Shown: piece by piece, positions 18,654 through 42,220 of the stretch
How positions within the stretch are numbered: the first letter of the stretch is position 1
Layout: each line of letters begins with the position of its first letter
From: a virus
Length of the DNA: 48,606 nt
IMG/VR virus record: IMGVR_UViG_3300008107_001187
Span: 1 to 48,606 of that record
Strand: one strand, 5' to 3'
Notes under the pieces: model-generated
Databases searched by the model: none
Seen by the model: the letters and a program-made list of their open reading frames with translations, nothing else
Told to the model about the DNA's origin: nothing
Program-made: the position numbers and the translations under genes

Positions 18654-19352
18654 TCACCAACCTGCCTTGCTTAATATATCTTTTGCGTATTCTTGATCAG
18701 CTGGATAGTTGTGAAACTTTTTTTGCCACACATCTGAGTCAATGTAGGGCCATACCATGCTGATTTGATCAGGAGAGAGTTCACCCAAGAACTGTTGTCC
18801 TGACTCTGAATTGTAAATTACCCAAGGTGATATCCTACCTGTTGTGACTGCATAGCACATGGCCGGTGTGCTGCCATATCGCAAACAGTCCTGTGGCTGT
18901 GCTGAATTTTTCTCTGCCCAGTCCATGCCAAACTCTACAGCTCGTGCTAGAGCATCTGCCACATTCTCTAATGGCAAGTATTGTATGAGATATTCTGTGT
19001 ACAGTTGATCACTTGCCCAACGATCGATCTTTTTGTTGTTTTTCAACAGCCACTCAAGAAACTGTTTGGGATTGATAGTTCTTGTGCTCACACAATAGCG
19101 TCCAAACTTCACAAACGCACGATAGTAAGGCGAGTCAGCAAAGTCGTCAAATGTCTTGAGCCGAGCCGAACCTTGGCTCATTTCATAAAAGCGTATGTAG
19201 GCTTGAAAACCCAGTTCCACACCACGCTCCGCTCGTTCCTGTCTGCGCCGTTTGGGTTCACACACATGCACTGCCAAAGAAGTTTCTTTGATAAAATCTT
19301 TCTTGCAGTACTGACACTGGGTCATTTTAGTAGATTGTTGTTGTTGATCCAT
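18654..19352 (-). CDS. Conserved T4-like phage protein with N-terminal zinc-finger-like motif, 232 aa
   Basis: Residues 13-31 contain Cys-x2-Cys (MTQCQYCKKDF) and a His/Cys pair (SLAVHVCEPKRRR), a C2HC zinc-finger-like motif followed by a basic stretch. The remaining 190 residues (AYIRFYEMSQGSARLKTFDD, YYRAFVKFGRYCVSTRTINP) form a conserved helical domain known in aquatic T4-like phages but without an assigned function. DNA or RNA binding is plausible from the finger and basic patch. It overlaps the broken SGNH-like gene by 31 bases. Confidence 0.8.
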   Translation of the reverse strand: MDQQQQSTKMTQCQYCKKDFIKETSLAVHVCEPKRRRQERAERGVELGFQAYIRFYEMSQGSARLKTFDDFADSPYYRAFVKFGRYCVSTRTINPKQFLEWLLKNNKKIDRWASDQLYTEYLIQYLPLENVADALARAVEFGMDWAEKNSAQPQDCLRYGSTPAMCYAVTTGRISPWVIYNSESGQQFLGELSPDQISMVWPYIDSDVWQKKFHNYPADQEYAKDILSKAGW

Positions 19353-19836
19353 GCAGTCAAAAACATGTTTAGTTCTTGATGAAATCCTGGTTGCCGATGT
19401 GCTATTTCTGGAGGCACATACTGAAGAGCTCCTGGACCATAATCTGTTGCTGGAACTCCTCGTTCATGTTGCCATGGTATGGCACGCCACTTGTATCCTT
19501 CAACTATTTCAGGTTCACTGTGAAACAATTTTAGTCTTGGTGAATCTAAATAAGATTCATATAAATTATCAGCCTGCTGGAAAACTATCACAGCATGGCC
19601 TCTAGATTTTAAACTGTGTATCATAGCAAGTATACGATACATGAGATCTTCTGCACGATCCAGTATGCTATTCAATTCCCATTTGAGTTTGAGTTCAATC
19701 ATTGCATCAGTATCTGCTTGTGTCCAGGGAGCATCCCATCGCGAACTCCAGCTTTGATTTTGAAAATTAGTCCATCGACCTTCGCATAGCTCTCCATGTA
19801 ACTACACCCATTAACCACCAGCTGTTGATATTTCAT
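19322..19836 (-). pseudogene. SGNH-like gene broken by an internal deletion/frameshift
   Basis: From ATG 19836 the frame reads MKYQQLVVNGCSYMESYA, a typical start of this phage SGNH family (GCS nucleophile block), then runs out of frame and stops near 19700. In another frame the downstream sequence reads EGRWTNFQNQSWSSRWDAPW, continues TQADTDAMIELKLKWEL and ends at 19322. An open frame of 126 residues starts at ATG 19702. The two halves belong to one family, but the middle, roughly 60-80 residues of an intact homologue, is missing at about 19778-19788. The break is either a real deletion or an assembly join. The remaining pieces are unlikely to be active. Confidence 0.75.
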
Positions 19837-20285
19837 CATGATCCTTCACCAAATTTTTTGAGATACTCGTTTATTTCTTTTTGTGATGTGATTCCGGCCA
19901 GCACACTAATTTCATCATCTTTGAGATGTGGGTAAATTTCTGCCAGTTGTTTTCGCTTGCCGGTAAGTGTGGCATCTTTTTTCTTGGGAGCAATCCAGTT
20001 GTGTCGTTGAGCACCCAGGCCAGGACTCACAGTAGTGGCCAGTAACCATTGAAGTTTTTTGTGTTTGGTCGTGCTGATGTTAAAAAAATGTTTGTTCAAT
20101 CGTTCGTTGGTGGCAATCACATAAAACTCTTGAAGCTCTCGAGATCCTTCCACCGCAGAACCCCAACGTATCATCAAAAAAGGGCTAAACTTTTTGCGTT
20201 CTTCATCAGACAATTGATCATAGAACGCTCTGTTCTTGCGATCAAATTGTTGCATCTCGTTGCCGATGGACAGGTTATCATTCAT
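19836..20285 (-). CDS. 62: Clamp-loader small subunit (T4 gp62 homologue)
   Basis: The 149-residue protein follows the gp62 pattern of T4-like cyanophages: a start with FYDQLSDEERKKFSPFLMIR, then ELQEFYVIATNERLNKHFF, HKKLQWLL, NWIAPKKKD and KRKQLAEIYPHLKDDEISVL. With gp44 it would load the sliding clamp gp45. Neither gp44 nor gp45 is in the window, although the three usually lie together. It is coupled to the 98-residue gene (four-base overlap) and followed by the broken SGNH-like gene, whose ATG overlaps its stop. Confidence 0.8.
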   Translation of the reverse strand: MNDNLSIGNEMQQFDRKNRAFYDQLSDEERKKFSPFLMIRWGSAVEGSRELQEFYVIATNERLNKHFFNISTTKHKKLQWLLATTVSPGLGAQRHNWIAPKKKDATLTGKRKQLAEIYPHLKDDEISVLAGITSQKEINEYLKKFGEGS

Positions 20286-20578
20286 TCGGTTTTGGTTAGT
20301 TTATAAATCATTATAGCACGTTCTAGTGCGTCTTGTAAAGTGGGATTGGTACGAGCTTCTCGCCGAATTTCGCCCCACATCTTGTCTTCCATTAGGTGAT
20401 CAAACAATGGTCGGCCGTCGCTGGTTCGTTTATCGTAGGATATTTGATGTCCAGTCATAGGATCATATCCATATCCAACCAGCACACGAGTAGAAGGATC
20501 AGCACCTGACTCACGAGCATACACCTCATTACCGTTGCGCTCGTAGATGTATGTGGCACCTGGTTTAAGGGTTCCCAT
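20282..20578 (-). CDS. Conserved phage protein of unknown function, 98 aa
   Basis: The sequence MGTLKPGATYIYERNGNEVY, then YGYDPMTGHQISYDKR and a helical C-terminus (LQDALERAIMIYKLTKTE), is the type of small protein conserved beside replication genes of T4-like phages. I recognise no domain. It overlaps the small gene 20565-20711 upstream by 14 bases and gp62 downstream by four, so all are one unit. Confidence 0.75.
   Translation of the reverse strand: MGTLKPGATYIYERNGNEVYARESGADPSTRVLVGYGYDPMTGHQISYDKRTSDGRPLFDHLMEDKMWGEIRREARTNPTLQDALERAIMIYKLTKTE
20310..20338 (-). promoter_or_regulatory. Possible extended -10 promoter before gp62
   Basis: TGC-TATAAT (the -10 hexamer at 20310-20315) is a perfect extended -10, 25 bases before the gp62 ATG. 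The -35 region (TTACAA, 20333-20338) is poor. It lies inside the 98-residue upstream gene. Confidence 0.4.
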
Positions 20579-20711
20579 ATTGATAACCGTATTGTAAATG
20601 TGCCCAACGCAGGAAACGTTCTAAGCCTTCACGGTCGTCGGGGTAACTTTCCAGATACACTCTGGCCAAGCGATTGATAATTTCAAATATTTCTGGTTCA
20701 GTATAGGGCAT
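20565..20711 (-). CDS. Small conserved-looking protein, 48 aa
   Basis: The frame reads MPYTEPEIFEIINRLARVYL, then ESYPDDREGLERFLRWAHLQ, ending YGYQYGNP. Its ATG overlaps the stop of the 166-residue gene as TAATG, and its 3' end overlaps the start of the 98-residue gene by 14 bases. That fills the gap between the two genes with no spare bases, which supports a real gene. It is helical and mixed-charge; the function is unknown. Confidence 0.7.
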   Translation of the reverse strand: MPYTEPEIFEIINRLARVYLESYPDDREGLERFLRWAHLQYGYQYGNP

Positions 20712-21211: not shown

Positions 21212-21219
21212 ATGTTATC

Positions 21220-22267: not shown

Positions 22268-22412
22268 GCGCTAGATGGATAACTTGATAGCCATATTGGT
22301 CTTCAAGCATCTGACTAAAATGCGCTCGCAGTCCCACCTCTTTGAGATCAACAGTTGATGCAGTACAAAAACTGTCTCCGCACACTGCAACAGTTATTTT
22401 ATTTTCATCCAT
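22188..22412 (-). CDS. N-terminal fragment of a broken SGNH-like gene
   Basis: The frame reads MDENKITVAVCGDSFCTAST, then RAHFSQMLEDQYGYQVIHLA, then HGGFSNAGIFFQMQKALERP and stops after KEFYLF. It carries the GDS nucleophile block and the Gly/Asn block (AHGGFSN) of SGNH proteins but lacks the C-terminal half, which lies in the next frame. The start overlaps the UvsW C-terminal fragment by 19 bases. At the break the same bases read sensibly in both frames (RPKEF and GLKNFIYSN), as expected if a deletion joined two similar sequences. Confidence 0.6.
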   Translation of the reverse strand: MDENKITVAVCGDSFCTASTVDLKEVGLRAHFSQMLEDQYGYQVIHLAHGGFSNAGIFFQMQKALERPKEFYLF

Positions 22413-22693
22413 TCTAATTTTTCCTGAGTAAAGGGATAGTTAGCTTCTTTATAAAATTGCTTGCGTTTGGTCAAGTGTCGTTTTGCAAATTTGCATGTTG
22501 AAGTTATGTCCCAGATTTGAACATGCTCTTTGTCTTCGGCTTTTCTTATGCCGCGTCCAATGCTTTGGATAACGCGGACAAAACTTTTCCCGGGTTCCAC
22601 AAGAACCAAATTAAAAATCCTAGGGATATTAATACCCACAGCGGCAACACCAGCACTGCGCCAGCACCCCTTGTTGTTGTAGTTCATTGGCAC
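22394..22693 (-). CDS. uvsW: C-terminal fragment of UvsW helicase (broken gene)
   Basis: From about 22660 the frame reads AGVAAVGINIPRIFNLVLVE, then FVRVIQSIGRGIRKAEDKEH and IWDITSTCKFAKRHLTKRKQ. This is the end of the second RecA domain of UvsW, with helicase motif V (GVAAVGINIP) and motif VI (QSIGRGIRKA, arginine finger). The first dozen codons from the ATG at 22693 are out-of-frame sequence of the N-terminal fragment. By comparison with T4 UvsW (503 residues), about 100 residues between the fragments are missing. Confidence 0.8.
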   Translation of the reverse strand: MPMNYNNKGCWRSAGVAAVGINIPRIFNLVLVEPGKSFVRVIQSIGRGIRKAEDKEHVQIWDITSTCKFAKRHLTKRKQFYKEANYPFTQEKLEWMKIK

Positions 22694-23570
22694 TGAGCTT
22701 GCTGATCACTGGACCCAGGCTTACCAATAGGGCTTGGCTTTCAAACTTCTCTTTGGGCACAGTACCGGTCAATCCCCAGCGAATTGGCACTCTAGCCATT
22801 ACGCTGGTCAGCAGAGTTTTGAGTGCGTCTGCCTTGGCCATGTGTACTTCGTCTACCATTACACATACCACATCCTCAATAAAGTCCTGTATGGTCACTT
22901 CACCAACACCTGCCTTGGTATTCTTCAGCAGTACATTTAAACTCTGCCAAGTGCAGATGGTATGTGTGCGTCCGTGTTCTTTTCTGTCGCCAAAGTAAAC
23001 GCCCACGTCCAGGCCAAGATTCACATAGTCTTTTTCAGTTTGTGTGACCAAACTCTTGTTGGGCACAATCACAATTGACCGCCCATATGGTTCTATACTG
23101 GCACTTAATGCCGCTGTCATGATTGTCTTGCCTGCACCTGTGGCCACTTCTTGTATGCATTGGGGATTGGTCAAGAAGTTGTTTACAATTTCTACCTGGT
23201 AGTCACGCAACATGATAGGTTGCCCTTCTGCAGGATGACCCTTGGGCCAAGTCTTGTGTGCAAATGTTTGTTCTGTAACTTGAGCAAACTCAAATGTGGT
23301 AGAGTATTCTCTTTGATCGTCCAGCTCAATGTCGTAGTTGTAACGTTCCAAGATGGGCATGATATCTGGTAACAAGTTGGTGTATGTTGATCCACCCAGT
23401 TGGAAGTAACTGACTTTACCATCCCACCGACCCAGCCTCACTGCTGGTAGATATCTTGCATAAGGTACATCATACTTAAACGCATTGACCAGGGCCTTGC
23501 GCACATCCAGATCGATACCCTCTAGTTTGATGTTTACTTCATCTCGAATTTGTATGGTGCATCGTTTCAT
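22629..23570 (-). CDS. uvsW: N-terminal fragment of UvsW recombination helicase (broken gene)
   Basis: The fragment contains the N-terminal substrate-binding part (LGRWDGKVSYFQLGGSTYTN) and the first RecA domain with Q-like motif MLRDYQVEIVNNF, Walker A VATGAGKTIMTAAL, motif Ia IVPNKSLVTQTEKDY, the DExH-type box VMVDEVHMAKA and motif III WGLTGTV. UvsW is the superfamily 2 helicase that remodels recombination and stalled-fork DNA. After NELQQQGVLAQC the frame becomes CWCCRCGY and stops; the rest of the gene continues in another frame. The direct repeat CCAGCAC at 22650-22656 and 22661-22667 (plus strand) marks the junction. Confidence 0.88.
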   Translation of the reverse strand: MKRCTIQIRDEVNIKLEGIDLDVRKALVNAFKYDVPYARYLPAVRLGRWDGKVSYFQLGGSTYTNLLPDIMPILERYNYDIELDDQREYSTTFEFAQVTEQTFAHKTWPKGHPAEGQPIMLRDYQVEIVNNFLTNPQCIQEVATGAGKTIMTAALSASIEPYGRSIVIVPNKSLVTQTEKDYVNLGLDVGVYFGDRKEHGRTHTICTWQSLNVLLKNTKAGVGEVTIQDFIEDVVCVMVDEVHMAKADALKTLLTSVMARVPIRWGLTGTVPKEKFESQALLVSLGPVISKLSANELQQQGVLAQCWCCRCGY

Positions 23571-24441: not shown

Positions 24442-24447
24442 GATAAC

Positions 24448-24701: not shown

Positions 24702-24702
24702 G

Positions 24703-27149: not shown

Positions 27150-27151
27150 AA

Positions 27152-27614: not shown

Positions 27615-28733
27615 CTACTGTCGTTTATTTATTTTGTTAATCCAATCAACAAGTACCTGTTTGTTGTGTTGGCAGATAACTTGGGAACCTTGATACAATT
27701 TGAGTTTTTGCGCCGTTGACAGTAGGGCCACACTTTTAATTGTGGAAAACATGGCACTAAACCGTTCTGGGCCGCTTAGATTGTCATAACCTTCATCCCA
27801 AAGTGTGTTAAACGTTTGGAATCCAAGATTTTGCATGCCTTTAAGAAATCCTGGGGCAGCATACACAAACTGAGGTTTTTCAGCTACCAGAGTGCGCACA
27901 GTTTTTTCGCTAGGCGTAAAGGTAAATCCTTCAGTCATGGTTTCAAAAGTTATTTCAAACAGATACTGATTTCTAAAACTCAACACACTATCAATCAATG
28001 TTGCATTGCGATTTTCACCAACAACATTTTTAATATACTGATCTCCTACACATACACCATCAACGCTGTTTATTGGCGGGTGTTTCATCCAATCAAGCAC
28101 AGCATCTAGATCTGGCACAATATCTGGTTGTTTCCAACGACCTATGTGATCATAGTATCGTTCAAGTCGCAGCCAGTTTGGACGATGAGCAGGTGCTGTT
28201 TCTTGCATGAGGCTCACTATGCAATCATTTTTTGTTTCAGGCATGTGAGTCAAGTGCCATAGGCCTAACATTCTTACAGTGGTTTTACGACCCACAAATA
28301 ATGCCCAAGTTTTTAAATTCTCAAGATCCAATTCTGCTGATGGCACAAGGTACTCTTGAGCACGATATATTTCATCAGTGATTTCACTGAAACCATTGTA
28401 AAACAAGTTGACCCAAGGATGATCTTGTGTCATGTTGTTTGGAGTAAACACAAATATCTTTGAGTCGTCTCGTCCTTGTTGCGCAATCAATTGTTCAATA
28501 CAGTTTCTTAGTCCGCTGGCAGAAAAACTCAATCCTTCAAATCTAACATGCACTACCACATAGTGATCCAATGGTACTTCTACAAAATTTTTAACAAATT
28601 CATACTGGCTTTCCCAGTAGTCTGAGCCCACATGCACATATACAACTGACAGTGGCAGTTGATTGTTGTCCGGCAACTGCAAGTACCGGTTGATCAATCT
28701 ATTCATTTGAAAGTGGTTGAAATCTTCAGTCAT
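27615..28733 (-). CDS. Glycosyltransferase-like phage protein (SEK/WDE-motif family), 372 aa
   Basis: Near the C-terminus the protein has SEKTVRTLVAEKPQFVYAAP, GFLKGMQNLGFQTFNTLWDE and GYDNLSGPERF. The gene at 45374-46366 carries the equivalent VSEKIFKPMAYYHPFIVFGS, REGFETFGNLWDESYDN. The two are paralogues. The SEK-plus-helix arrangement resembles the C-terminal donor-binding part of some GT-B enzymes, so a role in glycan assembly is inferred. The N-terminal half (YVHVGSDYWESQYEFVKNFV, FVFTPNNMTQDHPW) is unassigned. It overlaps the radical SAM gene upstream by four bases. Confidence 0.65.
   Translation of the reverse strand: MTEDFNHFQMNRLINRYLQLPDNNQLPLSVVYVHVGSDYWESQYEFVKNFVEVPLDHYVVVHVRFEGLSFSASGLRNCIEQLIAQQGRDDSKIFVFTPNNMTQDHPWVNLFYNGFSEITDEIYRAQEYLVPSAELDLENLKTWALFVGRKTTVRMLGLWHLTHMPETKNDCIVSLMQETAPAHRPNWLRLERYYDHIGRWKQPDIVPDLDAVLDWMKHPPINSVDGVCVGDQYIKNVVGENRNATLIDSVLSFRNQYLFEITFETMTEGFTFTPSEKTVRTLVAEKPQFVYAAPGFLKGMQNLGFQTFNTLWDEGYDNLSGPERFSAMFSTIKSVALLSTAQKLKLYQGSQVICQHNKQVLVDWINKINKRQ
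27626..27633 (-). promoter_or_regulatory. Late-promoter-like element AATAAATA
   Basis: AATAAATA on the minus strand, 22 bases before the ATG at 27604, with TAGGAGA in the leader. It is the same octamer as the plus-strand late element at 11498 and lies in the last codons of the gene 27615-28733. Confidence 0.6.
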
Positions 28734-29575
28734 CTAAATTTTACCAATCGTGAATGTGGCACATAGCAATCATCTTGACTGGTAGGGCATTGTCGACAGA
28801 TCATGTGTGGTTGGCCAAAGTTATCAGCAAACTGTTGAATATCTTCTGCACTGCTTTCTAATCCCACACTGCCGTTTGTGTTGTTGTCAAAATATTGATC
28901 CCATTGGTCTTTGTTGGGAGAATCATAGCGAGCCAGCGCATCTGGCAACAGCGCACTGGTACTGCATTTGTATATTCTTCCGTGGTACAGCAAAGGGCAA
29001 GTGGTTTGATGGCAATTGGCAAAAGCTGCTGAGGGATTGGAATTCCAAGGATGTGCAGTTTCGTATGTGCCACGAAATGTTTGTGTGAAAATTTCTGGTC
29101 GGTTGATTTGAAATCGCAAACCTGTTTTGGTACGCCACCGATCTATGCCGTATTCATGCACTGGTTGCCAATCATACGCAGACCACACTCGTTGAATGCT
29201 GGTTTCAAGTTCAGGATGATCTACATGTGCTGTGATTTTTAGTGTGGCATTACCATCTTGATACAACCAATCAACCACATCCCAGTGTTTGTGCAACAAC
29301 AACCCATTGGTAGGAAAACGTATCTTGCTGTTGGGGAACATAGATCTCACGTCCCGAAGCAACTGCATGATGTCAGGATATATCAACGGTTCGCCACCCA
29401 TGGGTCCTATGTCTTCAATATCAAACTTTTGTTGCCATTGTTCCAGCCAGGATCGAATTTCAGACCAAGGTGTGTATCCGCGACTGGGTATGTCACTGTA
29501 TGTACTACACCCTTGGCACACAAGGTTGCAAACTGAACTCAACATGAGTTCTAAAAATGGTAGTTGAGGTTTCAT
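28730..29575 (-). CDS. Radical SAM enzyme
   Basis: I placed the start at ATG 29575 (MKPQLPFLELMLSSVCNLVC) because it overlaps the preceding stop as ATGA. Cys16-x3-Cys20-x2-Cys23 (SVCNLVCQGCST) binds the 4Fe-4S cluster; GPMGGEPLIYPD is the GGE SAM-binding motif. Further Cys residues near the C-terminus (CHQTTCPLLYHGRIYKC; CRQCPTSQDDC) resemble a SPASM/auxiliary-cluster region. Substrate unknown. It is embedded between two glycosyltransferase genes with overlaps on both sides, so modification of a sugar or of a phage surface component is the most natural inference. Confidence 0.85.
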   Translation of the reverse strand: MKPQLPFLELMLSSVCNLVCQGCSTYSDIPSRGYTPWSEIRSWLEQWQQKFDIEDIGPMGGEPLIYPDIMQLLRDVRSMFPNSKIRFPTNGLLLHKHWDVVDWLYQDGNATLKITAHVDHPELETSIQRVWSAYDWQPVHEYGIDRWRTKTGLRFQINRPEIFTQTFRGTYETAHPWNSNPSAAFANCHQTTCPLLYHGRIYKCSTSALLPDALARYDSPNKDQWDQYFDNNTNGSVGLESSAEDIQQFADNFGQPHMICRQCPTSQDDCYVPHSRLVKFR

Positions 29576-30312
29576 TTCCAAAAATTTTCTATTACGGGAT
29601 CTTGAATTTGATGTGGTTTGGGCTGGCCGTGAAACACCAATGCACATGCGTCTGGATCAATGTGTGTGCCAGCCCCTGGAGTGTTTTGTTTTCTCAATTG
29701 AAAATTCATGCCTCCGTCCCAGGCTTGCCAGCGCCAGCTTTGAAAACGTTTTACATCAAAATATCTTTTTTTGTTGTGATCAATAGTGGCATTTATAAAG
29801 TCTTGATCACCCTGCCAGCGCCGAATCACAGCATCATGCCCTTGCCGATTGAACTCGTCCCAAACCCAAGAAAATTTTGAAACATTCCACCACATCACGC
29901 TGCTGTTCATATTGTTCCATGAAGGACGCTGTAGGTATCTAAAGTCTTTGAGAGTCCAGAAGTAATCAGTATGCAGTTGGGTTATCCAGGTTAGGTCTGC
30001 AACAATCACACAGTCCAAATCAAAGTACAAAAAATCATCCAGATGGTGCGCAGGATTAAACATCTGTATCTTGTACCACCAAGACTTTTTGGGCCCAGCA
30101 ATTCCTGGCCAATCTTCCAGTACATGTTTTACCATATGTGGCGGCACTGACCTATCATGCTCTGTGAACACATGTAGCCTTGCGCCGCCAGGCAGCCAAC
30201 GATTTAGCATGTTATGCAATCGTTCAACGTAAATCCAATCGTAGCCCGAGCTGTGTATCACACAGGCGCAATCAGTCACTTGATCAGTGCGGGTTCTATT
30301 CTTTTTAGCCAT
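29572..30312 (-). CDS. Glycosyltransferase, GT-A type with DxD motif
   Basis: The 246-residue protein has FLYFDLDCVIVADL, the DxD metal/nucleotide-sugar motif of GT-A enzymes, after SWWYKIQMFNP. YVERLHNMLNRWLPGGARLH precedes it, and SVMWWNV, GDQDFINATIDHNKKRYFDV and ALVFHGQPKPH follow, as in GT8-like phage glycosyltransferases. It would add a sugar to a host or phage glycan, or to DNA; the acceptor is unknown. It overlaps the GT-B-like gene upstream by 37 bases and the radical SAM gene by four. Confidence 0.8.
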   Translation of the reverse strand: MAKKNRTRTDQVTDCACVIHSSGYDWIYVERLHNMLNRWLPGGARLHVFTEHDRSVPPHMVKHVLEDWPGIAGPKKSWWYKIQMFNPAHHLDDFLYFDLDCVIVADLTWITQLHTDYFWTLKDFRYLQRPSWNNMNSSVMWWNVSKFSWVWDEFNRQGHDAVIRRWQGDQDFINATIDHNKKRYFDVKRFQSWRWQAWDGGMNFQLRKQNTPGAGTHIDPDACALVFHGQPKPHQIQDPVIENFWK

Positions 30313-31124
30313 GTTCCTGTGCGTATTTCAGTTAGTGTGTATTCAGTGTGGCAGATCTCTACCAGCCACTTATCTCGATTGATGTCATAAGACTTTTCTA
30401 TGTTGGCCATGCTCATACCTACCGGGGCCGCCAAACTGCTCTCATGCACAATGGGCCTACAACCTGCAATAGCAGCCTGCACTCCAGGACCTGAATTGTA
30501 ATTGACCACTGCATGATAGTTAAACCGCATGTCAAAGCTGTCGTAGGTGCCAGCAACCGGCCGCGGTTGTTCCACTGCGACGTCAGGCGGCAACTGACTC
30601 AAGTTCAGTCGATTGCGTGGATGCGGGCGTATACTGATGGGCCGATCAGTGTGCTGTCTTACCAATTTAATTTGATCCAATACCCATTGTGTCATGTCCA
30701 TACCAGAGACTTGTAAACTGCGAGCATGTTGAGCAGCAATAACTACATTGGGACTGGAGTTAAAAGTTATGGCCTGGCTGACATTCAATGTGCGTGGTCG
30801 ATCCCAATCTAAATTTTCTTCATGTCCGTAGTATCCATCTCTTGTGATATTGTTTACTGCTACCTTCCAAGTCTGCCCACGATACAGCGCACCAATTTCC
30901 AAAACAATCACTGGTTTGTTTTGACTGCGATAGTGCTCGTACACTGCTTGATTTGGTGCCATGCGTCCTGCCCAAAGCACACTCCAAATCACAGCCGCAT
31001 CAGCAGTCATTGAATTTTCTTGTGTTTGTATGCCGCGCGATTGCAAAAGATCCAAAACCGCCGACATCACAGGCCTACTGTTTTGGGCACATTGAGAAGG
31101 AAAATAGGCTATGTTATTGATCAT
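30276..31124 (-). CDS. GT-B-like glycosyltransferase/capsule-synthesis-type protein (paralogue 1)
   Basis: The 282-residue protein belongs to a paralogue set in this window. Diagnostic segments are VRQHTDRPISIRPHPRNRLN (paralogues: VKQHTDRPIVIRER, LKQHTDREIVVRLK) and the C-terminal donor-binding-like FNYHAVVNYNSGPGVQAAIA, followed by GCRPIVHESSLAAPVG. That arrangement matches CDP-glycerol/capsule polysaccharide transferases. The N-terminal half (AAVIWSVLWAGRMAPNQAVY) differs from the other paralogues. It starts 11 bases from the divergent plus-strand glycan operon. Confidence 0.7.
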   Translation of the reverse strand: MINNIAYFPSQCAQNSRPVMSAVLDLLQSRGIQTQENSMTADAAVIWSVLWAGRMAPNQAVYEHYRSQNKPVIVLEIGALYRGQTWKVAVNNITRDGYYGHEENLDWDRPRTLNVSQAITFNSSPNVVIAAQHARSLQVSGMDMTQWVLDQIKLVRQHTDRPISIRPHPRNRLNLSQLPPDVAVEQPRPVAGTYDSFDMRFNYHAVVNYNSGPGVQAAIAGCRPIVHESSLAAPVGMSMANIEKSYDINRDKWLVEICHTEYTLTEIRTGTWLKRIEPALIK

Positions 31125-31135
31125 AAGTACGTGAG

Positions 31136-31930
31136 ATGAAATACACTGTAATTACCACTTTCAACGCGGATGGTTATGCAAAGTACGGCCAGCGCATGAT
31201 ACAGACATTTTTACAAAATTGGCCAGTTGATCTAGTTGTGTATGCCGAAGGATGCAAAGTAACTGAGTCATCACCTAATCTTGAAGTACGTGATATTGAT
31301 GTAGTTACCGAGCTCTCTGCATTCAAACAACAGTGGCAAGGGGTTCCCCGGGCCAATGGCGATGTCAGTGCTGATCCTGTTAGATCAAAACGCAAAGATT
31401 CAGGTAAAGGATTCAAATGGGACGCTGTGAGATTTGCTCACAAGGTCTACAGCATTTTCCATTGTGCAAAAAATGCACAGACTGATTGGCTGATTTGGAT
31501 GGACGCAGACACTGTGTGCCATAGTGCAATCACTCAATCTGATTTGGCAAGACTATGTCCGGACACCGTGGATCTTTGTTTTTTAGGCCGGCGCGGCAAA
31601 TTCAGCGAGTGCGGATTGTACGCTATGAATCTTCAAAGTCCACGCACAAGAGATTTTTTAACACAGTTTCAGCAATACTATGATAATGCTGAACAGGGTA
31701 TCTTTACTCTGGCCGAATGGCATGACTCATTTGTGTTTGATGCAGTAAGAAGTCACTTGCCACTGATAGAACTTGATTGGTCAAGCCATTTGATCACAGG
31801 CGAAGGCCATCCCTTAATCAATTCAGAGTGGGGTGCCTGGCTAGATCATCTCAAAGGCAAACGCAAGGCCACAGGACGCAGTCCTGCTAGTGACTTAAAA
31901 GTCCAACGAACAGAGGCATATTGGCAATGA
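31136..31930 (+). CDS. Glycosyltransferase, GT-A type with DAD motif
   Basis: The protein begins MKYTVITTFNADGYAKYGQR, continues FLQNWPVDLVVYAEGCKV and has DWLIWMDADTVCHSAITQSD with the DxD metal motif, then ECGLYAMNLQSPRTRDFLTQ and WHDSFVFDAV. I know this as a glycosyltransferase-like family of aquatic phages. It is the first of four plus-strand genes with overlapping ends. No Shine-Dalgarno stands out, and no promoter is clear in the 11-base divergent gap, so control probably comes from within the neighbouring coding sequence. Confidence 0.75.
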   Translation: MKYTVITTFNADGYAKYGQRMIQTFLQNWPVDLVVYAEGCKVTESSPNLEVRDIDVVTELSAFKQQWQGVPRANGDVSADPVRSKRKDSGKGFKWDAVRFAHKVYSIFHCAKNAQTDWLIWMDADTVCHSAITQSDLARLCPDTVDLCFLGRRGKFSECGLYAMNLQSPRTRDFLTQFQQYYDNAEQGIFTLAEWHDSFVFDAVRSHLPLIELDWSSHLITGEGHPLINSEWGAWLDHLKGKRKATGRSPASDLKVQRTEAYWQ

Positions 31931-32727
31931 ACTGGATTTACCTTAACAAAAATAACGAAGACCAATACATAGAGATGTTTGCACAAGGCAGTCAGTGTCA
32001 CACTACTCAGTTGGAAACGTGGAACTATGATGACAGCAATGATCCTATTGTGTTACGTGGCATCATGAAACACAAGATATTCAAACGCTGCTGGCAAGAC
32101 AACAGACCATTTAGGTACATGGACACAGGATACTTTGGCAACAGAGCTAATTTTAGAAATCCACATGGTGTAAAAATGTGGCATCGAATAGTAGACAACA
32201 ATTTGCAACACGGAAAAATTATCTCCAGGCCAGATGATAGATGGAAACAGTTTAATATTGATATCAAAGCACGGCGTCGTGGGTCTGATATTGTGATTGT
32301 GATGCCTGAAGATAAACCTTGTATTGTGTATGGTACCACAGCTCAACAATGGCTAGATGAAACTGTAGCAACAGTTAAACAACACACAGATAGACCCATT
32401 GTGATACGTGAACGAAACAAAAATCGACAGGCGAGAGAAGCTGTACCATTTACCAGTTTGTTACGAGATGCACATGCTGTAATTGTATATAACAGTATTG
32501 CCGCTACAGAGTCGGTGCTGGAAGGAGTACCAGCGTTTGTTTGTGCTCCAAGCAATGCAGCAGATCCAGTTGCCAACAGAGATCTAGCCAAAATTGAAGA
32601 TCCTTGGTTCCCAGATCTGGAGCTGGTGCGTGCATGGGCTTGTCATTTAGCTTATGGTCAATTCCACAACAGAGAACTTAGAGATGGCACGGCCGCAAGG
32701 ATATTAGAGGAAACCAAACATGTATGA
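31921..32727 (+). CDS. GT-B-like glycosyltransferase-type protein (paralogue 2)
   Basis: The 268-residue protein resembles gene 34549-35577 in order: DPIVLRGIMKHKIFKRCWQD, FRYMDTGYFGNRANFRN, IISRPDDRWKQFNIDI, VKQHTDRPIVIRERNKNR, DAHAVIVYNSIAATESVLEG and AWACHLAYGQFHNRELRDGT. The YNSIAATE and GxPAF blocks occupy the donor-binding position of GT-B enzymes. It overlaps the preceding and following genes by 8-10 bases. Its paralogue lies on the opposite strand 2 kb away. Confidence 0.75.
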   Translation: MAMNWIYLNKNNEDQYIEMFAQGSQCHTTQLETWNYDDSNDPIVLRGIMKHKIFKRCWQDNRPFRYMDTGYFGNRANFRNPHGVKMWHRIVDNNLQHGKIISRPDDRWKQFNIDIKARRRGSDIVIVMPEDKPCIVYGTTAQQWLDETVATVKQHTDRPIVIRERNKNRQAREAVPFTSLLRDAHAVIVYNSIAATESVLEGVPAFVCAPSNAADPVANRDLAKIEDPWFPDLELVRAWACHLAYGQFHNRELRDGTAARILEETKHV

Positions 32728-33382
32728 AAGCCACGGGTGGTGGTTCCCAGACACCGAAGATCACTTTCCCAAAATGCTAGCCAAAAGTGTAAGCAAGGGT
32801 GGACCAACTGAATATCAGTACCAAGTTAGACGTCGAAGTTTTGATCATGTAAAACAAAAACGTGTGGCCTTAGACATTGGTGCCAATGTTGGGTTATGGA
32901 GTCGTGACCTTACAAAACATTTTACACAAGTGATTGCATTTGAACCTGTTGCTATGTTTAGAGAATGCTTGGAACGCAATGTGTTTGCCAAGAACTTGCT
33001 TGTTGAGCCAATTGCACTGGGAGACCACGAAGGCATGATCCAAATGATCATTACAGAAGGCAACACAGGACATACTCATGTGGATCCAAACAGCACAGCG
33101 GGCGACACAAAAATCACACGTTTGGACAGTCTAGAATTGCCTGTAGTTGATTACATCAAAATTGACTGCGAAGGATTTGAGTATCGTGTGTTGCAAGGTG
33201 CAGAACAAACTGTCAAACGCTGCCGTCCTATTGTGGTAATAGAACAAAAACCGCATGATGCATACAGCAAAGATTATGGACAGTTTGCCGCTGTTGGGTT
33301 ACTGGAATCTTGGGGCATGATTCGACTGGATCAAGTCAAAGACGATTGGATCATGGGTTGGATAAAAAATGACATTAATTGA
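32720..33382 (+). CDS. FkbM-family methyltransferase
   Basis: The SAM-binding core VALDIGANVGLWSRDLTKHF, VIAFEPVAMFRECLERNV, PIALGDHEGMIQMI, the TKITRLDSL block, then VDYIKIDCEGFEYRVLQGAE and IVVIEQKPHD is the classic FkbM order. Such enzymes O-methylate sugars or other hydroxyls. It is the third gene of the plus-strand glycan operon, overlapping the fourth by 14 bases. Confidence 0.92.
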   Translation: MYESHGWWFPDTEDHFPKMLAKSVSKGGPTEYQYQVRRRSFDHVKQKRVALDIGANVGLWSRDLTKHFTQVIAFEPVAMFRECLERNVFAKNLLVEPIALGDHEGMIQMIITEGNTGHTHVDPNSTAGDTKITRLDSLELPVVDYIKIDCEGFEYRVLQGAEQTVKRCRPIVVIEQKPHDAYSKDYGQFAAVGLLESWGMIRLDQVKDDWIMGWIKNDIN

Positions 33383-33929
33383 CAAAGAATACCAAAAACA
33401 ATTGGCCAGCATGCACAGTGGTGGTAAATTTAATCATGGCGCCAAAGCCTACACTGTGGTCAAAGATTTTATCAATCAATATCAGCCTGCCACACTGCTA
33501 GATTTTGGATGCGGGCATGGCGCATTACTAGACACAATTGGCCAGCATCATCCAAACATTGTGCTATCTGGATATGACCCTGGCAATGCCAGCTTTGCTA
33601 AATTGCCCACCAAGACATTTGATGCAGTTATCAGCACAGACGCTATAGAACACATTGAGCCAGAGTTTCTAATAGAAACATTCAAAACCATAAACCATTT
33701 GATGGAACGTTGTGGTTGTTTTAGAATTGCTTGCTATCCTGCCAAGAAAAATTTACCAGATGGTCGCAATGCTCATTTGATTGTGGAGAGTCCAGACTGG
33801 TGGCGAAACAAATTAACAACAGTGATGGGTGTAAAGGTCGTGAGCGAACAGATTTCAGTAGTTGATAAAACTCACAAATGGCCGCATGTTCTAGGTTACA
33901 ACTACGATGTTATCGTAGAAAAGGCATGA
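33369..33929 (+). CDS. Class I SAM-dependent methyltransferase
   Basis: Motif I LLDFGCGHGALLDTIGQHHP, motif II LSGYDPGN, motif III TFDAVISTDAIEHIEPEFLI and the DAIEH signature are those of Methyltransf_11/23 enzymes. At 186 residues it is a single domain. It ends the plus-strand operon and overlaps the 3' end of the broken glycosyltransferase on the minus strand by 20 bases. The substrate is unknown; the operon suggests a glycan or glycolipid. Confidence 0.88.
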   Translation: MTLIDKEYQKQLASMHSGGKFNHGAKAYTVVKDFINQYQPATLLDFGCGHGALLDTIGQHHPNIVLSGYDPGNASFAKLPTKTFDAVISTDAIEHIEPEFLIETFKTINHLMERCGCFRIACYPAKKNLPDGRNAHLIVESPDWWRNKLTTVMGVKVVSEQISVVDKTHKWPHVLGYNYDVIVEKA

Positions 33930-34200
33930 ACTTTTGATAGATTTGCCCACTGCGGCCATCGGCATCCGACCAGTGTGCAGCCGCTAGGTCGTTGATCCAT
34001 TGCGATCTATCAAAGGTCTGTGGTGACTCTAAATTGGCAATGTTTTTGTTGGCCACTGACCAGCTCACACAACTTTGATCATCAACAAACACCGGAATGT
34101 TGGCGCACACAGCAGCCACACTGGCAGAACTGTTAAAAAACACAGCGGCATGAGCATTTTGCAAATCTTGCAACAATGAACTCTTTGCTGGATCTACCAC
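33910..34200 (-). CDS. C-terminal fragment of a broken GT-B-like gene (paralogue 4)
   Basis: The frame reads VDPAKSSLLQDLQNAHAAVF, FNSSASVAAVCANIPVFVDD, ANKNIANLESPQTFDRSQWI and ends with a Trp/His-rich tail (NDLAAAHWSDADGRSGQIYQ). This is the donor-binding C-terminal end of the same family as the neighbouring paralogues. Upstream in the same frame it continues as IPKVTV before running into the N-terminal fragment in another frame. No Shine-Dalgarno precedes the ATG/GTG region, so it is probably not translated independently. Confidence 0.65.
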   Translation of the reverse strand: MVDPAKSSLLQDLQNAHAAVFFNSSASVAAVCANIPVFVDDQSCVSWSVANKNIANLESPQTFDRSQWINDLAAAHWSDADGRSGQIYQKFMPFLR

Positions 34201-34202
34201 TG

Positions 34203-34559
34203 TTACTTTAGGTATGCACGATCATAAAATGGGCCGCCAATGCTGTATCTCAAATAAGTTCCGTGATCATCAAGATATTTGAAACAACTGGCATCAATGC
34301 ACATTGTTTTCAAACCTTGGCGTTGCTGTTCAGCAATAATTTGTTTACGTAGAGCTATATTTGGTCCACCAGTGTTTGTGGTTGCCCAGCCCAACATCAC
34401 AGCCAGTCTGCTGGGTGTATATTTGTAATCCCACTCTACTACTACATTACCGCCTGAATTTTTGACTCCGTCAGCAAAACTTTCCAAACATTCAATTTTT
34501 CTAGAATGTTTTCGAGGATTGGCAACAGAACTGATGTAAACCACTGCATCAATGGTCAT
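34203..34559 (-). CDS. N-terminal fragment of a broken GT-B-like gene (paralogue 4)
   Basis: The frame reads MTIDAVVYISSVANPRKHSR, VVVEWDYKYTPSRLAVMLGW and LRKQIIAEQQRQGLKTMCID, then YLRYSIGGPFYDRAYLK and stops. The middle third, which should contain the HTDRPI-type segment of the family, is absent, and the C-terminal end lies in another frame. Paralogues are 268-342 residues; the two pieces together make only about 215, so about 100 residues are missing near 34205-34222. Confidence 0.65.
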   Translation of the reverse strand: MTIDAVVYISSVANPRKHSRKIECLESFADGVKNSGGNVVVEWDYKYTPSRLAVMLGWATTNTGGPNIALRKQIIAEQQRQGLKTMCIDASCFKYLDDHGTYLRYSIGGPFYDRAYLK

Positions 34560-35577
34560 TCAGTATTCTCCATGCAGTGCCATCGCGCATTTCTGGCTCA
34601 GTGAACTGGCAATATGCAATGTGCCTGGTCCAAGCTTCTACTTCGTCTAGCGTGGGTATTTTTGGATTTTCAATTTCTGATAATGATTGACTGCATAATG
34701 CGGCAGCGGCATTTGGACCCAAAGTAATAGCTGGTTTGCCGCACAACAGTGCTTCGCCGGCAGCAATGCTTGAGTAAGTGACCAGGCACCAGATATCTTG
34801 TTGCAGAGCCATTTGCATGGTGTCGGTGGTTTGTCGTACTGACCGACCTTGCTTGAGTCTGACCACTATTTCACGGTCAGTGTGCTGTTTTAAAGTAGCA
34901 ATGGTTTGATTCATCCACTGTTCAAGATCGATGTCATACAAGTTTAACAGTTTTTGGCTAGGAGGGGCCAACAAAATTTTGGCGCCGTCTTGTCTAAATT
35001 TTGTAAGTTGAAGATTGCACTTAGCAACTCGGTCGCCTGGTCTGTCAATTATGGGCCCAAAATTTTGCACATCATTTTTGGTGATGCGGTGAAATGTTTT
35101 TTTCTTACCATTACCAAAATAACCAGTGTCAAGATAGTAGAAATCTCTGCCTTGCTGTTTGCACACTGCCATCTCTTTGCGTTTGGTAATACCTCGTAGT
35201 ACCACCGGAGTCATGTTATTTTCTTCTTTTGTCCAATTGCTGATTCTTCCGCCAGCCCCTTGTACAAAACTTTGTAGTATGGGATCGTACATGTGTCCTT
35301 TTTCCTTATACTTGAAATCTCCTGGTTCTGTGGCAATAGCTGCAACTGTATCTTGTTTTAGGCCATGTATGGATTGAATTAAAGTATCTGCTGTGACACC
35401 ATAGTATTCGCCAGCAGCATCAACTCGATACTTTAAGATATCTCTAAACAATTTGTGTATGTCAGGAGGCACCATGTCTAAAACATGCTGAGGTAATGGT
35501 GCTAACAGTTCTTCATCTTCTTCACTCATATATCTCTCTGTTGACAATATTCTGTTAGTAAGCGTTCCTTGTGCCAC
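34549..35577 (-). CDS. GT-B-like glycosyltransferase-type protein (paralogue 3)
   Basis: The 342-residue protein is the longest member of the set. VVLRGITKRKEMAVCKQQGR, FYYLDTGYFGNGKKK, DRPGDRVAKCNLQL, LKQHTDREIVVRLKQGRSVR, CLVTYSSIAAGEALLCGKPA and RHIAYCQFTEPEMRDGTAWR align with gene 31921-32727. An extra N-terminal ~75 residues (LLAPLPQHVLDMVPPDIHKL) distinguishes it. It overlaps the GT8-like gene upstream by 52 bases and the broken paralogue downstream by 11. Confidence 0.75.
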   Translation of the reverse strand: MAQGTLTNRILSTERYMSEEDEELLAPLPQHVLDMVPPDIHKLFRDILKYRVDAAGEYYGVTADTLIQSIHGLKQDTVAAIATEPGDFKYKEKGHMYDPILQSFVQGAGGRISNWTKEENNMTPVVLRGITKRKEMAVCKQQGRDFYYLDTGYFGNGKKKTFHRITKNDVQNFGPIIDRPGDRVAKCNLQLTKFRQDGAKILLAPPSQKLLNLYDIDLEQWMNQTIATLKQHTDREIVVRLKQGRSVRQTTDTMQMALQQDIWCLVTYSSIAAGEALLCGKPAITLGPNAAAALCSQSLSEIENPKIPTLDEVEAWTRHIAYCQFTEPEMRDGTAWRILNDH

Positions 35578-36212
35578 TCGTTACCTTGTGGAGTGTCAGC
35601 AAACTCGTGAAAGCATGGAGTGCCCAAGGTATAGTGCAAGAGCTTGGCGTCGGGGTTTGGCCCGTATTCATCGGGCAACCAATTCCATTCTTTAGGCAGT
35701 TCGCCTATGCGAGCATCATCCAACCATGTGAATCTATGCAACTCAGCACCTGTAGCTTTTTGCACAAACTCAGGAGTAAGTTTTCGGTTAGGATAACTGT
35801 TACAATTCCACAGTATCACACTGGACCAGTTTTTGCGTGGATAGTCTTCGTTCTTGGCCCCTAAATACTTTTCAGTCATCTTGGTTTTATAGTCATGTTT
35901 GACTACCATTACATCTGAATAAGCATCTCGCAAGTTCCAAAGTTCTGCAATGTCTCCACGCACAATCATATCACCGTCAATGAATATTGCCCAACCTATG
36001 TGTTGCATGAGATGTGGCACAAGAAATCGTGTGTAGATAAAGTGATTGCTGCCGTCTGTGTGTGTTTCGCTGTAGTCCTTGAACAAATTAAGTGCAACTG
36101 GAATGATTGCAACAGGTCTGCTTGAATTTCGAATAATAGAATTTACGCAGGTGTGATATGCAATTGCTTCTCTAGGATCGTATCCTACAAATACTGGTAT
36201 AATATCTTTCAT
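35526..36212 (-). CDS. Glycosyltransferase, GT8-like with DGD motif
   Basis: The protein reads MKDIIPVFVGYDPREAIAYH, TRFLVPHLMQHIGWAIFIDG-DMIVRGDIAELW (Asp-Gly-Asp metal motif), KNWSSVILWNCNSYPN, and ends with LLHYTLGTPCFHEFADTPQG, the HxxG-type block of GT8 enzymes that contacts UDP. This gives a complete 228-residue GT-A glycosyltransferase. It is coupled to the cytidylyltransferase-cupin gene upstream (four-base overlap), which may supply an activated sugar. Confidence 0.85.
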   Translation of the reverse strand: MKDIIPVFVGYDPREAIAYHTCVNSIIRNSSRPVAIIPVALNLFKDYSETHTDGSNHFIYTRFLVPHLMQHIGWAIFIDGDMIVRGDIAELWNLRDAYSDVMVVKHDYKTKMTEKYLGAKNEDYPRKNWSSVILWNCNSYPNRKLTPEFVQKATGAELHRFTWLDDARIGELPKEWNWLPDEYGPNPDAKLLHYTLGTPCFHEFADTPQGNEWHKERLLTEYCQQRDI

Positions 36213-36970
36213 CGGCGTTCGATATCTTCTTCTACACAGTTTTCCCCAAACTGTATTTCAATCAGTTTGAGTGGACGGTCTGTTTCGTTGCACAATTGAT
36301 GCCATTCATTGCGATTGATCCAAGTAGCTTCATGCACAGTTAGGTGATCTTTGATGTCTCTATCTGTACTGGAATCTAGTGTGTACACCGTGGCTTCACC
36401 TTCAGCCACAAACCAAAACTCTGATCGTCGGTCATGCCGTTGCATGCTCAAACAAGTTTTGGGTGCCACAGTAAGTTCTTTAAGTTTGGTGTTGGCGCCA
36501 ACTTCGTGTAACACACGATAGTATCCCCAGGCTCGCGAGGTCTTGGGCTTTTTCCATTCTTCAAGAATCCATGAACTGCTATTCTTTTTATCCTCGCCGC
36601 CTACACCAAATGCAAATTCTAAATTGCTATCTATCACATCCATTTCAGGAATGTTTTTGTCAGTGCGATCACCACCATTGGCAAATATCAACGTTGCGTC
36701 AGGGTAGTGTGCTCGAACCTGTCGGATAAACTCTTTAGCTGAACCATCTGCATCGTCAAATGTGTACACTTCGTCAACCATGGCAAGATTGTTTATCACA
36801 CACAATCTTTCCGTCCATGGCATGAATGGCCGACCTTTTTTACGAGTCAGCCATTCGTCTGAATTAAGTCCCACAATCAGCATGTCGCCTAAAGTGCGGG
36901 CGGTTTTGAAATAGGCAATATGCCCAGAGTGTAGCGGATCAAAGCCGCCAGTTACAAGTACAATTTTCAT
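36209..36970 (-). CDS. Cytidylyltransferase-like protein fused to a cupin domain
   Basis: I placed the start at ATG 36970 (MKIVLVTGGFDPLHSGHIAY), where the HSGH motif (residues 14-17) begins an HxGH nucleotidyltransferase domain of the RfaE/TagD type: LIVGLNSDEWLTRKKGRPFM, ERLCVINNLAMVDEVY. From about residue 140 a cupin follows (WGYYRVLHEVGANTKLKELT, SMQRHDRRSEFWFVAEGEAT, WINRNEWHQLCNETDRPLKL), like mannose-6-phosphate isomerase type II C-termini. It probably makes or edits a CDP- or ADP-activated sugar for the glycosyltransferases downstream. A TGTAAATA motif lies only six bases before the ATG. Confidence 0.85.
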   Translation of the reverse strand: MKIVLVTGGFDPLHSGHIAYFKTARTLGDMLIVGLNSDEWLTRKKGRPFMPWTERLCVINNLAMVDEVYTFDDADGSAKEFIRQVRAHYPDATLIFANGGDRTDKNIPEMDVIDSNLEFAFGVGGEDKKNSSSWILEEWKKPKTSRAWGYYRVLHEVGANTKLKELTVAPKTCLSMQRHDRRSEFWFVAEGEATVYTLDSSTDRDIKDHLTVHEATWINRNEWHQLCNETDRPLKLIEIQFGENCVEEDIERR

Positions 36971-36978
36971 GCAGGTAT

Positions 36979-37431
36979 TTACACCTGGATGTCTTCCATG
37001 CCAGCAGTTCTTAGCCGCACAACATGCCCCATTTGCCACTGTTTGGTATCCAGACCCTTCATGATACCCAACCAGCGATTGCGTAGGTATGCCACTTCGT
37101 TGATTATGGTTTCGTAATCAATCACTTCATCTTCGCCATCCACATACTTTTCTGCGTCGCGACTAGTGAGCGCACGGGCATAGCCTTCCAGATACTTTTG
37201 GAAATGCTTTCTGCGGATCTTACGCAGTTGGATATTGAGGAAGTTCAACACAGCTTCAATTTCTTGAAGCTGGTTGTATCTAAACTCAGTAATGCCAGGA
37301 AGTGCTGTTATGTTTTTTTCAACAATTCCAGCAATGCGGCAGTCTTTTTTAGCGTCAGTTATTTCACGCTCGTAGTGTGCTATAAAATCTGGAATAGCAT
37401 CAAGATTAGCAACTACTCGACTATACCACAT
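36979..37431 (-). CDS. uvsY: Recombination mediator UvsY
   Basis: The 150-residue helical, basic protein has IVEKNITALPGITEFRYNQL, LNIQLRKIRRKHFQKYLEGY and DYETIINEVAYLRNRWLGIM followed by KGLDTKQWQMGHVVRLRTAG, which fits UvsY of T4-like phages (T4 UvsY is 137 residues). UvsY loads UvsX on gp32-covered ssDNA. Its place one gene from uvsX supports the call. It overlaps the small acidic gene upstream by one base (TAATG-type). Confidence 0.82.
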   Translation of the reverse strand: MWYSRVVANLDAIPDFIAHYEREITDAKKDCRIAGIVEKNITALPGITEFRYNQLQEIEAVLNFLNIQLRKIRRKHFQKYLEGYARALTSRDAEKYVDGEDEVIDYETIINEVAYLRNRWLGIMKGLDTKQWQMGHVVRLRTAGMEDIQV

Positions 37432-38749: not shown

Positions 38750-38762
38750 GTATCACCTGTTA

Positions 38763-38800: not shown

Positions 38801-38810
38801 AGTGCAGAGA

Positions 38811-39707: not shown

Positions 39708-42220
39708 GTTCCAGTGTGGATAAATTGCTCGATCGCCTCCACCTCTGTAACCGCGCCATTGTAGTTGATTGCGTCCTGTGGTGCTTCACCAATTACTGGT
39801 GCCATGCCACCGGCTACTGTGCCCATTTCGTACATGCCGCATTCCATTAAACCATGCTCCGGGCAGTACTCACCTTCCATGGTTGAGTTGCAAGAGCCTT
39901 CTTTGGTCATTTTGCGACCCAGCATGCCGCCACCAGTACTGCCTGCGGCACCACCTACCACGCCACCTATTGCTGCGCCAATTGGTCCGCCTGCAAGAGC
40001 TCCTAATGCAGATCCAGCAACTGTTCCGCCAACACCGCCTAATGTTCCGCCGGCAAGTTCGCCCTTCCAACCTTCGCTTAATCCTAAATCAGCATAAAAT
40101 CGATCAGACACCCACTCATACGGATCACCATCTCTGGCTTTTTTGGTGCCATATGGCATGTCATCAAAGTAATAGTCGTACAGTGCATGATAGAGATCAT
40201 CATCCAAATCGCCGCGTTCTTTAAAGTCTGCAACTTCTTTGGTGAAACGTTTGATGATGTGATCCATGGTGTGACCAGTTGAATCTGTCAACACACTTTC
40301 TTTCATTGGCACACCAGCATATTTCAGCATGGTGTTCAGTTCTGCGTTTTCGGCCACAGCTTGTTGTGTTGGAATACCAATTGTAAATGCACCGCCTACA
40401 GGTTGATCAAATCTCCAACCTTTTTGTCTAAATGTATTATAGTATGGATTGATTGCTTTGGTAATATTTTGCATTGTTGCACCGTCATTACCTGTTGGAA
40501 CTATATATCCACGTGATGGCGGATATGTACGGTCGTTAGGATCTGGGTTTATTACTATTCTAACAGTGCCGTCTTGATTTGGAAAATCTTTTACAGTTGC
40601 ACCGGTTGCTTGTTGCAATGTCTGCACAATTTGTTGAGCATACTGTTGAGTTGCTTTGGGATCTACTCCAGCAGCCGGAATTGCTTCTGCCATGCCTTGC
40701 TCAGGAAGATTTGGGCGGGGGTGTTTGCCGCTAATATCTCTAATACTCTGTTTTAGACTGGTTATTTGATCTCTTGATGGCAGGCCTTTTCTCTTACCAG
40801 CTGTGTTGATACTATGTTCGATGCCTGAACGGCCAATGCCAGCTCCCTTCACTAACGGATCAGTACGATCATAAGCACTACCTACGCCGCCCATTCTACG
40901 TTTTTGTCCAGGATCGTTTTCTGGTCGTTCAGGAAAATCGTAGCCGTACCCAATATCATCATATTCGTCACTGTCACCTGGTTCTTGAGTGTACAAGCGA
41001 TCCTTGTATTTAGGGTCACGCCATTTAGCAGCCTCAGCCATACCTTGTTCAGGTGCGGTGTCTTGTGCAACATCAGCAGGTTCAGCTTCAGAACTCTGTG
41101 GTGTTTGGATCCCTAGTTCAGCCAATCTAGCTTGCACATCTGAGTCATCCCAAATGTTGGCACGAGGATCACGGTCAGCCAAGTTGCCAAGGATATCAAA
41201 CAATTGATCGTCACCTATGACATCGTACAGTAGTTCTGTAGCGTTGGTGGCGTCTGGACCAACAATCAGCTCTCCGGTCATGAGTTGATTGAGTTTTTCC
41301 TGTGCTTCTGGATTGTCTGGCAAGGCCCATGTGCCTTCCATGATACCGTTTACCCAGTTTTCAAAAATTTGTGCTTCTTTCATAGCGTTTCCTCGTTGTT
41401 GTATTTTGGCCAAGGTAGGCAAGGCCTGTTCAATTCTTGTGTCCAATGTTTGTTCAATTTTTAAATTGCTTTGCAGGGCTTCGTAATATACATTGGCGCT
41501 TTCAACCAGTTGCTGTGTAACACCTTCAAACATGCGGCCTTGCTGTGCTCTGCGGAATCTTGACAGCACTGCCATCTCACCAACAGTTTCTGTGATGTGT
41601 TGTCCACGGATATCGTAGGGTCTGCCACCTTGGCGCACATGTTCCAGCATGGCTCGGCCGCCGACCAATTTGACAAATGGCAATTTAAAACGTTCACCAT
41701 CCACAGTTTCAATAAACAAACTTTCTACATAGCGATAGCGTTTGTCGTTTTCGCCAATCATGCGGTTGTGTTTGATTACCAATCTTGCATCAGTTTGCTC
41801 GCCCATGTAGCTGATTTTGCGTGTGCCATAGTAGCCTTCAAACAAACCTTCTTTGATGGCAGCCATGCCAGTCATTGTGTGTTTGAGAGCATTGATATTC
41901 TTTGGGCTAAAAGTATTGAAGTTGTGACGAGTACTAAAATCTTTGAGTTCTTTCATGAATCCAAACCACTCATCTTTGTCTTCAGGCGCCATGCCCTTGC
42001 CAAGATTGTCACCGTAAAACAGCATGAGCTCGTTTTCATCGCCGGCCACAATCACTGCGGTGCCATAGTTGTTGCCGTTAGATGATACCCAATCAAACTT
42101 AAAAACTTTGCCGTCAGCAGGATCAGCTGCTTGCCCACGCTCGTCAGTGATATCCACATCAAAATTACGAGTGTTTAACAGATCATACAGATCATTGCCA
42201 ATTTGGATTTCTTGTGCCAT
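39623..42220 (-). CDS. Large conserved structural-type protein with glycine-zipper segment, 865 aa (3' end replaced)
   Basis: The N-terminal 250 residues (MAQEIQIGNDLYDLLNTRNF, EGYYGTRKISYMGEQTDARL) form one domain, followed by a long multi-part region with linkers (APEQGMAEAAKWRDPKYKDR, AEAIPAAGVDPKATQQYAQQ), a conserved LNTMLKYAGVPMKESVLTDS / YYFDDMPYGTKKARDGDPYE block, a glycine-zipper hydrophobic stretch (GALAGGPIGAAIGGVVGGAA) and EGEYCPEHGLMECGMYEMGT, all seen in large proteins of aquatic T4-like phages. After INYNGAVTE the frame runs into gp32 sequence in the wrong frame, so the last ~40 residues are not native. It starts next to terL; virion role inferred. Confidence 0.8.
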   Translation of the reverse strand: MAQEIQIGNDLYDLLNTRNFDVDITDERGQAADPADGKVFKFDWVSSNGNNYGTAVIVAGDENELMLFYGDNLGKGMAPEDKDEWFGFMKELKDFSTRHNFNTFSPKNINALKHTMTGMAAIKEGLFEGYYGTRKISYMGEQTDARLVIKHNRMIGENDKRYRYVESLFIETVDGERFKLPFVKLVGGRAMLEHVRQGGRPYDIRGQHITETVGEMAVLSRFRRAQQGRMFEGVTQQLVESANVYYEALQSNLKIEQTLDTRIEQALPTLAKIQQRGNAMKEAQIFENWVNGIMEGTWALPDNPEAQEKLNQLMTGELIVGPDATNATELLYDVIGDDQLFDILGNLADRDPRANIWDDSDVQARLAELGIQTPQSSEAEPADVAQDTAPEQGMAEAAKWRDPKYKDRLYTQEPGDSDEYDDIGYGYDFPERPENDPGQKRRMGGVGSAYDRTDPLVKGAGIGRSGIEHSINTAGKRKGLPSRDQITSLKQSIRDISGKHPRPNLPEQGMAEAIPAAGVDPKATQQYAQQIVQTLQQATGATVKDFPNQDGTVRIVINPDPNDRTYPPSRGYIVPTGNDGATMQNITKAINPYYNTFRQKGWRFDQPVGGAFTIGIPTQQAVAENAELNTMLKYAGVPMKESVLTDSTGHTMDHIIKRFTKEVADFKERGDLDDDLYHALYDYYFDDMPYGTKKARDGDPYEWVSDRFYADLGLSEGWKGELAGGTLGGVGGTVAGSALGALAGGPIGAAIGGVVGGAAGSTGGGMLGRKMTKEGSCNSTMEGEYCPEHGLMECGMYEMGTVAGGMAPVIGEAPQDAINYNGAVTEVEAIEQFIHTGTWKKVNRPHYASYLTVTQKTHFSGSNEQ

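Follow-up and report, generated by a model that had tools for sequence, protein, structure and literature searches.

Broken genes in a 48.6-kb record of a T4-like phage: almost certainly an artefact of assembly, probably from scaffold gaps closed up without Ns

When read pairs bridge two contigs, short-read metagenome assemblers that include a scaffolding step fill the space between them with Ns (PMC7111523). The scaffolding gaps and local assembly errors treated there resemble what we observed in having ordered pieces, an unassembled stretch between them, and broken protein-coding genes. They differ in that such a gap is normally written as a run of Ns, whereas the DNA analysed here, the 48,606-base virus record IMGVR_UViG_3300008107_001187 taken at its full length (hereafter the window), contains no N at all; its origin as a read-pair scaffold is presumed. 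Most long ORFs of the window lie on the minus strand. PHROG profiles recognised UvsW, UvsX, UvsY, gp32 and the large terminase, as expected of a T4-like phage, and it is in carrying these genes that the window resembles the T4-like jumbo phages; judged by the terminase, its nearest matches in the phage collection were jumbo Pseudomonas phages, including PA5oct and Paride, at ~51% identity. In contrast, contigs from IMG/VR were far closer to the window, with best matches at 98–100% identity. The kind of phage implies nothing about the scars with which the rest of this analysis is concerned.

An initial annotation, made from the letters alone, had described internal deletion scars at five sites: in UvsW, in two SGNH-like genes, in a GT-B-like gene, and at the junction between a structural protein gene and gp32. 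When IMG/VR was searched with the N-terminal UvsW ORF, the search matched IMGVR_UViG_3300031784_000004 (220,546 bp), and alignment of this contig with the window revealed a single mismatch (at window position 16458) and ten extra pieces. Two further contigs, IMGVR_UViG_3300031787_007614 (364,404 bp) and IMGVR_UViG_3300031963_008656 (214,935 bp), showed zero mismatches over the 48,606 window bases and carried the same ten extra pieces. Each intact piece, together with 30-base flanks, was matched exactly in 3 to 7 named contigs, and shorter contigs from other datasets contained single pieces exactly. The joins in window order, with the length of the extra piece absent from the window at each, and the two ORFs discussed further below, are as follows.

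Join 1024/1025: 88 bp absent; 142-aa ORF in the intact contig, 115 aa here; intact in 7 named contigs
Join 5215/5216: 181 bp absent; cuts the 128-aa and 100-aa ORFs of the intact contig; intact in 5 named contigs
Join 16674/16675: 93 bp absent; start of a 362-aa ORF, 357 aa here; intact in 5 named contigs
Join 19783/19784 (first SGNH-like scar): 205 bp absent; interrupts a 240-aa ORF; intact in 5 named contigs
Join 22213/22214 (second SGNH-like scar): 83 bp absent; 233-aa ORF reduced to 74 and 157 aa; intact in 5 named contigs
Join 22652/22653 (UvsW helicase): 293 bp absent; 489-aa ORF reduced to 313 and 99 aa; intact in 5 named contigs
Join 26583/26584: 85 bp absent; interrupts a plus-strand ORF that has 233 aa in the intact contig; intact in 5 named contigs
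Join 34216/34217 (GT-B-like scar): 271 bp absent; 306-aa ORF reduced to 118 and 96 aa; intact in 4 named contigs
Join 39744/39745 (structural protein/gp32): 261 bp absent; intact in 3 named contigs
Join 41458/41459: 102 bp (34 codons, length divisible by three) absent within the 878-aa structural protein; intact in 3 named contigs
22394..23570, minus strand: UvsW-like helicase gene, broken in the record; PHROG profile phrog_16
4970..5479, minus strand: artificial fusion ORF of 169 aa, crossing join 5215/5216

All five scars of the initial annotation were thus present in the letters, and alignment to the intact contigs placed each join within the range that had been given for it; five further joins (1024/1025, 5215/5216, 16674/16675, 26583/26584 and 41458/41459) had been overlooked. 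The estimate of roughly 50–100 missing residues per scar did not always hold, as 83 bp corresponds to 28 codons. In the intact contig the five sites all lay within open full-length ORFs (UvsW, 489 aa; gp32, 332 aa; the others 240, 233, 306 and 878 aa). Full-length genes in a sister contig from the same sample had been named beforehand as the result that would show assembly error, and the finding of such genes in sister contigs of IMG/VR comes close to it. The missing lengths were divisible by three in three of ten cases, which is about chance level.

The effect of the joins was clearest in the two genes with profile matches. Compared with phrog_16, the match of the N-terminal UvsW ORF of the window ended at profile position 449 and that of the C-terminal ORF resumed at 551; for the intact protein (489 aa), the best-matching stretch covered positions 267–613. 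In the window gp32 began at position 34 of phrog_1192, whereas the intact copy (332 aa) covered 2 to 324; join 39744/39745 removes 34 N-terminal residues of gp32 and also truncates the 878-aa structural protein at its C terminus. The fusion ORF at 4970–5479 has as its start that of the intact 100-aa ORF and as its end the stop of the intact 128-aa ORF. For the SGNH-like and GT-B-like ORFs, neither Pfam nor PHROG gave a match at E 0.001 with the intact or broken ORFs tested, and these two names are used here as labels only. Around the GT-B-like gene, window positions 27615–36212 hold a run of ORFs that by eye resemble glycosyltransferases, methyltransferases and a radical-SAM-like protein; the ORF at 35526–36212 matched a PHROG of unknown function, and its neighbour at 36209–37039 matched a heptose adenylyltransferase PHROG.

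We concluded from the sister contigs that the broken genes in IMGVR_UViG_3300008107_001187 were almost certainly produced by the assembly and do not reflect biology, since this contig silently omits 83–293 bases at a time that are present in other contigs of the same phage; the "deletion scars" do exist in the record, but the phage itself almost certainly lacks them. The interpretation we favour, with a probability of roughly 0.95, is that the window is a closed-up metagenome scaffold of an ordinary T4-like phage whose internal gaps were lost without Ns. The flanks of the joins were identical to the intact contig and in the same order, the gaps were short, and the joins lacked homology, all as closed-up scaffold gaps should appear. 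We propose that eleven contig pieces, correct in order and orientation, make up the window, and that adjacent pieces abut directly, the sequence between them being absent and no run of Ns marking its place. The record is most likely a scaffold built from paired reads: read pairs would have ordered the pieces, and the gap letters would have been dropped when the scaffold was written or processed. The range of the missing lengths would fit a paired-read library. As Ns normally mark such a gap and none is left here, each gap looks like a deletion.

Alternatively, contig ends might have been joined directly by an assembler or during merging, the N gap never having been written, and this would equally yield abutting pieces without N. 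However, the two sides have no base in common at seven of the ten joins and never more than 2 bp; an exact-end-overlap rule therefore could not have made them. Joining after trimming, or under other rules, belongs to the same explanation, which we consider improbable as a whole.

The initial annotation had offered two causes of its own: microhomology-mediated deletion in the phage population, or the skipping of repeat-bounded pieces by the assembly. Microhomology at the ten joins measured 0, 2, 1, 0, 0, 0, 0, 2, 0 and 0 bp, a sum of 5, compared with 7.0 ± 3.2 when deletions of matching size were drawn at random (20,000 sets; probability of a sum of at least 5, 0.78). Identity of the ends above chance, as microhomology-mediated deletion would leave, was thus not found across the ten joins, and microhomology was rejected as the cause. 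Nor do the short repeats noted at the joins mark the ends of deletions. The motif CCAGCAC lies at 22650 and at 22661 and has 13 occurrences in the window; the copy at 22650 spans the UvsW join and was therefore created by the join. No 20-mer of the missing pieces recurred on either strand within 58 kb of the 220-kb sister contig, and in that 58 kb neither the missing pieces nor their borders were repeated in the way that repeat-collapse misassembly would require. With 0–2 bp shared at the joins and a sum below that expected, the joins agree neither with deletion through microhomology nor with the skipping of pieces bounded by repeats. The skipping itself held, as the identical sister contigs contain the pieces; what failed was the proposal that repeats bound them.

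A real phage lineage could nevertheless have undergone ten short deletions by microhomology-mediated or other illegitimate recombination, and the letters of the window do show ten clean deletions relative to the sister contigs. Against this, the ten deletions stand beside zero substitutions in 48.6 kb when the window is compared with two of those contigs, the microhomology is at chance level, and UvsW, gp32 and the structural protein would all have to be struck together. Several of the affected genes are normally retained by T4-like phages. Ten deletions, several of them in genes normally kept, unaccompanied by any substitution, are not the pattern expected of lineage divergence. The examined junctions also did not recur: the UvsW and gp32 junction strings, two of the ten, had no exact match in any other viral contig of viral_contigs, a search from which the window's own genome records may be excluded, while the intact sequence at the left edge of the UvsW gap was matched exactly in at least 120 stretches of that collection. 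Among the loci that we compared, none of the ten window junctions was present except in the window's own locus. Deletion within the population therefore found no support, and we regard a real lineage of this kind as very unlikely. The same low probability applies to a real defective subpopulation of the phage carrying ten homology-free deletions in 48.6 kb and no base substitution.

We also asked whether more diverged relatives carry the pieces. In a wider set of 197 loci with UvsW, the gene was full in 155, cut by the end of the locus in 40 and broken in 2; these counts are biased to the intact form, as 120 stretches had been obtained by means of the intact edge of the UvsW gap. Because of this bias, we recounted on loci not chosen by the intact edge (L003–L081 and L082–L161, the best 80 matches of each search), and the result was unchanged. 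UvsW was full and in a single frame in 78 of the 79 recount loci, the remaining one being cut by the locus end; gp32 was full in 76 of 80, and the other four were likewise cut. A piece was scored as present if at least 80% of it aligned and both flanks aligned. By this measure, the missing piece was present in 28 of 29 recount loci at join 16674, in 80 of 80 at 22652, in the single locus at each of 26583 and 34216 (1/1), in 3 of 5 at 39744, and in 11 of 11 at 41458. The loci below 80% were L015 at 16674 (45%) and L147 (51%) and L123 (17%) at 39744; in the wider deduplicated set there were six such loci at 16674 and two at 39744. L123 is the clearest apparent absence, but as it keeps ~262 bases between its flanking matches at the gp32 gap, its piece has diverged rather than been lost. 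For the gaps at 1024, 5215, 19783 and 22213 the recount set held no relatives with both flanks, and support comes from same-strain contigs; the pieces at 19783 and 22213 were present in 4 of 4 deduplicated loci each of the wider set, which is biased to the intact form. We found nothing in favour of the reading in which the window is the true form and the sister contigs contain erroneous insertions, and we consider its probability negligible, since UvsW and gp32 are made complete by the extra pieces, which also align in diverged relatives, as in all 80 both-flank recount loci for the UvsW piece and all 11 for that at 41458.

Returning to the closed-up scaffold, there is a weak indication that its contigs broke where co-occurring strains have an identical stretch. 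With five further loci (L208, L218, L236, L259 and L286) left out of the strain-sharing tests on account of same-strain sequence, the longest run found exactly in other strains averaged 118 bases in the gaps versus 72 ± 17 nearby (P 0.0065, in a post hoc comparison that was one of two tests); the second test, of the depth of shared 25-mers in gaps versus nearby sequence, gave P 0.30, and in two gaps the longest strain-shared runs were only 27 and 0. One of the loci left out, L286 (3300008448_002971), is identical to the window strain as far as 123 bases into the 181-bp piece (L286 positions 3675–3797); beyond the branch point it is a diverged relative, with matches at 72–92% identity. It is either a recombinant strain or a chimeric contig, and illustrates in one case how strains can branch within a gap.

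The same defect was seen elsewhere in IMG/VR. Both broken UvsW loci of the 197-locus set showed the same gap signature when compared with the contig of locus L211.

3300008267_006612 (L239): lacks 89 and 82 bp relative to L211, after positions 1862 and 2447
3300008120_002532 (L254 and L302): lacks 78, 160, 91 and 39 bp relative to L211, in L254 after positions 5483, 6177 and 7689 and in L302 after position 2086

Contig 3300042691_008480 spans unbroken both of the L239 pieces and the 160-, 91- and 39-bp pieces of 3300008120_002532; for the 78-bp gap, L211 is the sole comparison. One gap is common to L239 and L254, with one edge identical and the other 2 bp apart, so that where contigs break depends in part on the sequence or on which strains are present. 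No such break was found in 20 further pairs of near-identical contigs (≥98% identity over 148,236 aligned bases, with the window and the pair L045/L116, which is one contig, set aside); a later set of 10 pairs (34,940 bases) contained two, both in L239. We concluded that the collection as a whole does not share the defect. A run of five or more Ns was found in none of 281 loci (2.79 Mb), a result that does not show the step at which Ns would have been lost or that they ever existed; L161 has 19 Ns, of which the five displayed are single Ns.

At least three IMG/VR records are thus affected: the window, 3300008267_006612 and 3300008120_002532. Silent gaps of this kind, left without Ns, create false pseudogenes, a false fusion ORF and false "scars", and a near-identical contig reveals them immediately. 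For the phage itself the breaks have no biological significance; they are of some use as a warning.
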